Made by a program: the position numbers and the translations under genes
The notes under the pieces: generated by a model
The model's input: only the letters and a program-made list of their open reading frames with translations
The model's database searches: none
Told to the model about the DNA's origin: nothing
Shown here: positions 11,725 to 12,880 of the stretch, in pieces
How the letters are laid out: every line of letters starts with the position of its first letter
How positions within the stretch are numbered: position 1 is the stretch's first letter
From: a virus
Strand: one strand, 5' to 3'
IMG/VR virus record: IMGVR_UViG_3300021425_000177
Span: 1-25,311 of that record
Length of the DNA stretch: 25,311 nucleotides

Positions 11725-11876
11725 CAGAGATCCCACCTCACTACTTCGAGTATGGTGCCTTTCGCCTCATCCAGTCTCACTACCTTTAGGTTAGACAGTA
11801 TTGCTACGTCTGATCTCCAGGCCTTAGCCATAGAGTCTGCCGCCCGAACTGCAACGATGTATTCATCTATGTCCAT
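11724..11876 (-). CDS. Small hypothetical protein after dcm
   Basis: A 50-aa protein (MDIDEYIVAVRAADSMAKAW at the start, ending in EAKGTILEVVRWDL). Start ATG 11876 has GGGAGAG about six bases upstream and overlaps the methyltransferase stop by 14 bases; a longer reading from 11921 has no comparable ribosome site. It ends with a TGATG overlap into the next small gene. No family recognised. Confidence 0.55.
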   Translation of the reverse strand: MDIDEYIVAVRAADSMAKAWRSDVAILSNLKVVRLDEAKGTILEVVRWDL

Positions 11877-12681
11877 TGATAGCTCTCCCGATAAGCTCTG
11901 GTATTGGCGGAACAACTGCATTGCCTAAGCATTTAAGTCTGTGTGATCTAAAGGGAATCCCATCAGCCACTCTACCCACGTCGGGTTCAGCGCCCCACCC
12001 GCTTGCGCCGACAATGTTGGCGTATTGCGATTGTATTCCGATGGAAAGGCTCCCTCTTTGGCATTGTGCGCCGTTGGCGTTGGCCACATCCTCACGTATT
12101 GCTGAAGAGTTAGCTGCGCCCTGTGCCCGCTTGGCCTGATCGGCTGCCAGTTGGGTGTTGTCCCGCCCGTACTCGCCGCTGGGGTAGGCAATAATCCAGA
12201 TCCGATCTCTGTGATGGTGCGCGCCAAGTTCGGAAGCTGGTATACAGTGCCACTCCGCATCATACCCGATCTGGGAAATGTCCCAGAGAACTCGCTTAAA
12301 CCAAGCTCCCCGTTCTCCATTAAGCAGGTTTGTGACGTTTTCAAAGATGGCGTATCGGGGCTGAAGCTCCCCAATAAGACGGGCGCACTCTGACCATAGG
12401 CCACTGCGTGTTCCGTCTTGTATTCCTGCTCGATTTCCTGAGACTGAGATGTCTTGGCAGGGGAAGCCGCCTGTAATGACATCGACTCCAATTCCGTCTG
12501 AAGCCAATCGCTCTGCTGTGATTGTTCGTACATCGTCATAGATCGGTACTCCTGGCCAGTTCTTTTTCAAGACCTTCTGAGCGTAGGGTTCTATCTCACA
12601 GAATGCTACTGTTTCAAATCCCGCCCGTTCCAGTCCTAACGTGAATCCGCCTATTCCAGCGAATAGATCAAGAACTCGCAC
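11863..12681 (-). CDS. dcm: C5-cytosine DNA methyltransferase (Dcm family)
   Basis: Transfers methyl groups from S-adenosylmethionine to cytosine C5 in DNA; in phages a solitary enzyme like this usually protects against host restriction. The 272-aa protein has motif I DLFAGIGGF (5-13), motif IV GGFPCQDIS (71-79) with catalytic Cys75, motif VI FENV (113-116), motif VIII HHRDRIW (156-162) and motif X GNAVVPP (253-259). I place the start at GTG 12681, with AAAGG eight bases before it, so the protein opens VRVLDLFAG; ATG 12720 is an alternative. It overlaps the membrane-protein gene by 14 bases. The target-recognition stretch is short. No restriction endonuclease is visible nearby. A long second frame lies inside it. 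Confidence 0.93.
   Translation of the reverse strand: MRVLDLFAGIGGFTLGLERAGFETVAFCEIEPYAQKVLKKNWPGVPIYDDVRTITAERLASDGIGVDVITGGFPCQDISVSGNRAGIQDGTRSGLWSECARLIGELQPRYAIFENVTNLLNGERGAWFKRVLWDISQIGYDAEWHCIPASELGAHHHRDRIWIIAYPSGEYGRDNTQLAADQAKRAQGAANSSAIREDVANANGAQCQRGSLSIGIQSQYANIVGASGWGAEPDVGRVADGIPFRSHRLKCLGNAVVPPIPELIGRAINGHR
11925..12539 (-). CDS. Candidate overlapping gene nested in dcm (+1 frame)
   Basis: A 204-codon frame on the same strand as dcm, shifted by +1, from ATG 12539 to TAG at 11925. AGGAG lies nine bases before the ATG, inside dcm. The product has FPRSGMMRSGTVYQL (88-102), LLPTP (116-120), WPTPTAHNAKEGAFP (152-166) and LNPTWVEWLMGFP (184-196). I recall PTPTA...LNPxWVEWLMGxP from phage and prophage proteins of unknown function found beside cytosine methyltransferases; no search was run. 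Under uniform codon use a 204-codon stop-free run has a probability near 6 in 100,000, but dcm coding bias makes that figure soft. It could instead be a shadow frame conserved because dcm is conserved. Confidence 0.5.
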   Translation of the reverse strand: MTMYEQSQQSDWLQTELESMSLQAASPAKTSQSQEIEQEYKTEHAVAYGQSAPVLLGSFSPDTPSLKTSQTCLMENGELGLSEFSGTFPRSGMMRSGTVYQLPNLARTITEIGSGLLPTPAASTGGTTPNWQPIRPSGHRAQLTLQQYVRMWPTPTAHNAKEGAFPSEYNRNTPTLSAQAGGALNPTWVEWLMGFPLDHTDLNA

Positions 12682-12880
12682 AGTCGATGCCTTTGAAATT
12701 GGGATGACCGTTCTCGCCATTGGAGTCAATCCAGATGTCCACGTTGCCGCAGTACCACTCGTGATTGCTGATCTCTTCTTCCATATCAGCGTTGCCCAGT
12801 ATGCCCATTCCAATCACAAATAAGACAATGCCCGCGATTACACGGCCCGGATACTTGTTGAATAATTCCTGTTCGTACAT
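12668..12880 (-). CDS. Small single-pass membrane protein
   Basis: A 70-aa protein with one hydrophobic segment, VIAGIVLFVIGMGILG (about 14-29), following a short basic N-terminus (KYPGR). The rest is acidic and polar and contains three Cys residues. The arrangement suggests one membrane span, but topology is uncertain. GGGAGAAGGAC precedes ATG 12880. The 3' end overlaps the methyltransferase start. I do not recognise a family. A GC hairpin lies just upstream of its ribosome site (12900-12914). Confidence 0.65.
   Translation of the reverse strand: MYEQELFNKYPGRVIAGIVLFVIGMGILGNADMEEEISNHEWYCGNVDIWIDSNGENGHPNFKGIDCASS

Follow-up and report, generated by a model that had tools for sequence, protein, structure and literature searches.

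A second protein-coding gene almost certainly lies within the C5-cytosine methyltransferase (dcm) gene of this phage, read from the same strand in the +1 frame. Comparison of sequences indicates that its product, termed beta, is probably the second polypeptide of a two-polypeptide C5-methyltransferase encoded by nested genes, the first being the frame-0 product, alpha. Two-chain C5-methyltransferases are a kind of enzyme already known; no report of this phage overlap, or of its scale and the switch of selected frame along it, was found in the literature searched.

Organisation of the nested genes

The stretch of DNA analysed, referred to here as the window, is a phage sequence of 25.3 kb recorded in IMG/VR, and its minus strand encodes terminase, portal/head-tail adaptor, major head and tail proteins. 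Alpha occupies positions 11863..12681 of the minus strand and comprises 272 amino acids when read from a GTG at 12681. The first possible start of this ORF (11863-12813) is a TTG at 12813, although GTG 12681 is the likelier. A probable start signal for alpha, AAAGG-N8-GTG, was recognised by sequence at 12679..12694 (minus strand), and relatives likewise start at the equivalent (M)KVLDLF.

The preliminary description had reported a same-strand +1 frame intact over 204 codons, with AGGAG nine bases ahead of its ATG and an end shortly before the dcm stop, and each of these particulars was confirmed. Beta (204 aa, 11925..12539, minus strand) is open from ATG to TAG, lies wholly within alpha and covers 75% of its length; its TAG at 11925-11927 falls approximately 60 nt before the alpha stop at 11863-11865. 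The translation start of beta, AGGAG-N9-ATG, is placed at 12537..12553 (minus strand) on the basis of sequence and codon bias. Approximately 11 nt are common to the start of beta (12525-12539, ATGACGATGTACGAACAA, encoding MTMYEQ) and that of a small upstream gene (12668-12880, ATGTACGAACAG, encoding MYEQ), a match that is possibly due to chance.

Within the overlap, frame 0 of the minus strand carries motif IV (GGFPCQDIS, 12445-12471), motif VI (FENV, 12334-12345) and motif VIII (RDRIW, 12196-12210). The segment from motif IV to motif VIII (12196..12471, minus strand) is double-coded with beta SPAKTS...FSGTFPRSGMMRSG, and both frames are constrained. Downstream is the target-recognition region (11989..12186, minus strand), where the +1 frame reads beta ...PTPAAS...WPTPTA... 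and the frame-0 reading appears to be an unconstrained linker. Motif IX, LNPTWVEWLMGFP, is read in the +1 frame at 11952..11990 (minus strand) over frame-0 EPDVGRVADGIP (11953-11988), and this overlap is placed directly upstream of motif X (CLGNAVVP, frame 0, 11908..11931, minus strand), which itself contains the stop codon of beta. The suggestion that one segment of DNA encodes two conserved motifs is supported, the WVEWLMGFP segment being situated just upstream of motif X.

Distribution of methyltransferase motifs between the two chains

Alpha matches PF00145 with an E value of 4.7e-50, over profile positions 2-168 of 324 only, and PHROG_363 at 7e-80. Motifs I, IV (PCQ), VI (ENV), VIII and X are present in this one catalytic chain, in keeping with membership of PF00145. 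A canonical motif IX was not found in the alpha chain, where the PF00145 match ends at 168 and frame-0 EPDVGRVADGIP is unconstrained. An AlphaFold2 model of alpha yielded pLDDT values mostly above 90 for the catalytic core and mostly below 50 for residues 206-254, and resembled only the large domain of M.HhaI (167 columns, rmsd 1.4).

Beta matches PHROG_1008 at 8e-23, as do 103 of 103 members of the beta family, and its profile matched no Pfam family. When modelled alone it is predicted to be mostly disordered, with a pLDDT of 58, a result that carries no information on its fold within a complex. The best match of the beta profile to a solved structure was the motif-IX segment of plant DRM methyltransferases, LEPDEVEMLLGFPKNHT, a weak match with an E value of 1.1. 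Profiles of beta compared directly with those of six ordinary enzymes did not recover motif IX, and single-frame intermediates were therefore used for its assignment. In two relatives, L329 and L238, the sequence LN(A/P)DWVEWLMGFP (LNADWVEWLMGFP / LNPDWVEWLMGFP) shares one frame with the catalytic motifs and motif X, and these proteins cover positions 1-319 and 2-319, respectively, of the 324 in the PF00145 profile. This stretch aligns under RKLTPRECWRLQGFPDW, the classic motif IX of ordinary enzymes, and the beta profile matches L329 exactly at this point with a probability of 97.5%. Since WVEWLMGFP aligns with motif IX in the single-frame relatives, LNPTWVEWLMGFP represents motif IX of a C5-methyltransferase, supplied by beta. 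The earlier view of WVEWLMGFP as a motif of no known function is corrected by this assignment, under which beta would be a piece of the enzyme itself and not an unrelated factor.

Selection along the gene was assessed by counting changes according to their effect in both frames, in 54 independent pairs drawn from a set of 249 distinct nested genes, with omega values obtained as simple pairwise counts. Values for frame 0 and the +1 frame, respectively, were 0.19 and 1.48 over motifs I-III, 0.15 and 0.74 over motifs IV-VI, 0.30 and 0.57 over motifs VI-VIII, and 0.22 and 1.09 over the motif X region. Over the target-recognition region, where the alignments are gappy, omega was 1.15 (1.05-1.27) in frame 0 and 0.71 (0.56-0.88) in the +1 frame. 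Over the motif IX/EPDVGRVADGIP region it was 0.04 (0.01-0.07) in the +1 frame and 2.26 (lower bound 1.00) in frame 0. The same pattern was obtained from 23 pairs in an earlier run. These values point to constraint on frame 0 over motifs I-VIII and X, whereas over the target-recognition region and motif IX the +1 frame alone is constrained; the selected frame changes at the domain boundary. The low pLDDT of residues 206-254 and the restriction of the structural match to the large domain of M.HhaI agree with this frame switch. As the target-recognition region is unselected in frame 0, target recognition probably resides in beta.

The arrangement suggests a scheme in which the frame-0 ORF would yield alpha, providing cofactor binding and catalysis (motifs I-VIII) together with motif X, while a ribosome binding site inside alpha would permit internal initiation of the +1 ORF and so the production of beta. 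Beta would contribute motif IX and, it is inferred, the target-recognition segment. The two chains would then assemble into an enzyme able to methylate phage DNA, and methylation would probably afford protection against host restriction.

Beta might instead be a real protein with a separate role, whether in anti-restriction or as a regulator of alpha or of the host, and merely derived from a methyltransferase. Two observations would suit such a role: the portion of beta that overlies motifs IV-VIII, its N-terminal part, is selected yet corresponds to no known methyltransferase segment, and in a second family, described below, motifs IV-VIII are overlapped by another conserved +1 ORF, a different one, even though motif IX is in frame 0. 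However, beta ends in a motif IX that is absent from alpha, the target-recognition region is unconstrained in frame 0, and the PHROG_1008 proteins of split relatives carry motif X too, so that a separate role is considered unlikely. Among the functions originally put forward for the second protein, that of a partner of the methyltransferase is the most likely; no evidence for an anti-restriction role was found in the analysis, and none is needed to account for beta.

Initiation of beta and selection on the +1 frame

Bias at the start of beta was measured in relatives sharing the same beta start. In the codons underlying the Shine-Dalgarno (SD) sequence, glycine was encoded by GGA in 22 of 24 cases compared with 40% elsewhere in the same genes, and glutamate by GAG in 16 of 17 compared with 50%. 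At the ATG, tyrosine was encoded by TAT in 52 of 70 cases compared with 41% elsewhere in the same genes. An SD-like sequence was present ahead of beta in 38 of 52, where 19 were expected. The SD and start codons of beta are thus selected beyond the needs of alpha.

A change of selected frame just past motif VIII, and split relatives in which the catalytic ORF ends near the same point, might also be expected from programmed frameshifting after motif VIII, giving a single chain in which the target-recognition region and motif IX come after motifs I-VIII. This is very unlikely: the +1 frame is open and selected for approximately 110 codons upstream of the switch point, beta has its own selected SD and start, and nested forms could return to motif X only by shifting frame once more. 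The bias in the start signals, together with selection on those upstream codons of beta, favours internal initiation over frameshifting.

Openness of the +1 frame was compared with that after permutation of synonymous codons within the dcm gene, which retains both the protein and the codon usage. The observed open run of 213 codons exceeded the maximum of 194 (mean 77) obtained from 1000 shuffles of alpha. No excess openness of the +2 frame was detected in the same test (p = 0.56).

When viral contigs were searched with beta, at least 592 related stretches were recovered, and in the loci examined first the beta frame was +1 to the dcm frame in 88 of 88. Since these loci had been picked by similarity to beta, the search was repeated with alpha, taking the best 80 viral relatives (45-79% identity) chosen by methyltransferase similarity alone. 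A match to beta was present in the +1 frame at 80/80 of these loci, and the permutation test gave p<0.01 in 65 of them. Beta was clearly broken at only one of the 80, L158. This locus (L158/L345, same contig) possesses a stop over motifs VI-VIII and an alpha without the EPDVGRVADGIP segment; both halves of the small domain look to have degenerated together.

Four-fold sites at conserved alpha residues differed at a frequency of 0.40 inside the overlap, compared with 0.70 and 0.69 on the flanks. At 70-80% alpha identity, four-fold differences amounted to 62% over motifs I-III, 27% over motifs IV-VI, 11% over motifs VI-VIII, 34% over the target-recognition region, 0.1% over EPDVGRVADGIP and 53% over motif X. 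Over motifs VI-VIII, 6 stops were found in the +1 frame of 300 nested loci compared with 624 expected by synonymous shuffling, and another count for this segment gave 1 compared with 237 expected. At L066:1970-2870 the alpha frame is stopped in-frame after VRTLTK and the beta frame is intact, the opposite of what neglect of beta would lead one to expect; the stop in alpha may be a sequencing error.

The preliminary description had named stops in homologues, absence of synonymous constraint and loss of the start signal as the marks of a shadow frame, open and similar only through conservation of the dcm protein, with no second protein made or selected; none of these was the pattern observed. 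Some resemblance is automatic, as SPAKTS under FPCQDIS is a direct shadow of the catalytic motif, but the synonymous constraint and absence of stops fall exactly over beta and not outside it, the +1 frame is conserved over motif IX where frame 0 is not, the start signals of beta are selected, and the +1 frame is interrupted by a stop over motifs VI-VIII in each of L238, L329 and L368, related enzymes that carry motif IX in frame 0. Given the codon-permutation, four-fold-site, stop-count and two-frame omega tests and the match at 80/80 loci, the shadow explanation was rejected as extremely improbable, unless an unrecognised constraint at the nucleotide level were to mimic every test. A genuine overlapping gene pair, as first proposed, is supported by the stop counts, four-fold sites, two-frame omega and start-codon bias.

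Relatives, comparison with known systems and significance

Classification of 370 sequences gave 279 nested, 14 split and 23 fused arrangements; the only non-nested forms were split genes still overlapping the catalytic gene and single-frame fusions. The preliminary description had placed proteins resembling beta near cytosine methyltransferases as separate proteins, but no convincing stand-alone homologue away from the catalytic frame was found among the loci classified. No catalytic domain was recognised at L215, L229 and L281; two of these three loci lie at the edge of a contig and show the alpha frame. Bacterial genomes from many phyla carry nested pairs as well, and within the Gammaproteobacteria 12 of 369 had a match, most of the 12 nested. 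The nested, double-coded design appears to be common to hundreds of phages and prophages, for which databases usually annotate one of the two proteins.

Split forms include SchoolBus gp6/gp5, Skipitt gp78/gp77, L260, L308 and L317. In the split actinophage forms the catalytic ORF stops soon after motif VIII, and in split forms an overlapping +1 ORF holds the target-recognition region and motifs IX and X. The +1 proteins belong to PHROG_1008, like beta, and the catalytic parts to PHROG_363. In the actinophage fusions L294, L295, L261, L266 and Tweety gp72 (L094), an LLPTPxAxD unit is repeated several times in the recognition region, and the +1 frame is still free of stops over motifs VI-VIII, where approximately 1-2 would be expected in each. 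Two Mycobacterium phages show unusual annotation: in XFactor (L092), gp67 is the beta frame, annotated instead of the methyltransferase, and in Jinglebell (L091) a shift of the alpha frame mid-gene leaves each half readable in a different frame, while the annotated genes at this locus run antisense.

A second C5-methyltransferase family (L093, L096, L090 and L391-L470, from Streptococcus, Lactobacillus and related phages) has motif IX in frame 0; its motifs IV-VIII are also overlain by a conserved +1 ORF, with the ending ...SLSDILEEEVPEKYFLS (PHROG_16143 in pST). Stops in the +1 frame over motifs VI-VIII numbered 7, compared with 224 expected, and just past motif VIII omega was 1.08 in frame 0 and 0.44 in the +1 frame. 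No report of this ORF was found in the literature searched.

In M.EcoHK31I, a two-polypeptide C5-methyltransferase of YGGCCR, motif IX is described as residing in the smaller chain and motifs I-VIII and X as residing in the larger (PMC3404938), and a paper by Lee, Kam and Shaw (1995, NAR 23:103), cited there, states in its title that two proteins are required in vitro (PMC3404938). Compared by published motif layout, the pair described here is alike, with motifs I-VIII and X in alpha and motif IX in beta. In the window the beta gene is nested within the alpha gene in another frame, and the smaller subunit of M.EcoHK31I is presumably also read in an alternative frame inside the larger one. The two systems differ in that the target-recognition domain of M.EcoHK31I is described as predicted in its larger chain (PMC3404938), whereas the region considered here appears constrained in the +1 frame only. 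The sequence of M.EcoHK31I was not found among the plasmids and E. coli genomes searched. In M.AquI (CYCGRG), alpha is described as carrying motifs I-VIII and beta as carrying part of the variable region and motifs IX-X, the division falling between the halves of that region (PMC3404938), a layout matched by SchoolBus gp6/gp5 and Skipitt gp78/gp77. The window departs from it in that motif X stays in alpha and beta is fully nested.

The catalogue entries for PHROG_1008 and PHROG_363 ('DNA methyltransferase') make no mention that both families are read from a single DNA segment in two frames. In one phage group this nested +1 ORF has been annotated, as SHELLY_56 ('g55 internal gene') of Paenibacillus phage Shelly, and the deposited record calls it hypothetical and recognises neither a function nor a motif. 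A parallel is the ShiLan domain, an out-of-frame HNH endonuclease in an actinophage methylase (PMC11855218), where a phage methylase gene likewise conceals a second protein in a different frame. However, it is a sporadic mobile insertion element, whereas here the core enzyme is overprinted and the pair is universal in the sampled subfamily.

It is moderately likely that a large and ancient class of phage and prophage 'single-chain Dcm' proteins consists of obligate two-chain, two-frame enzymes whose true recognition module lies, together with motif IX, in the +1 gene, the frame-0 'target-recognition domain' being an unselected read-through linker. The nested gene accounts for a protein that has gone unannotated, or been misannotated, in phages and in many bacterial phyla alike. 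A 'Dcm' ORF cloned without the inner start might show no activity or odd activity, because the chain it encodes lacks part of the small domain. As an example of gene overlap in dsDNA phages the pair is both deep and densely sampled, selection measurably switches frame at a domain boundary, and the origin and splitting of overprinted genes become testable on hundreds of natural variants, whether nested, split or fused.
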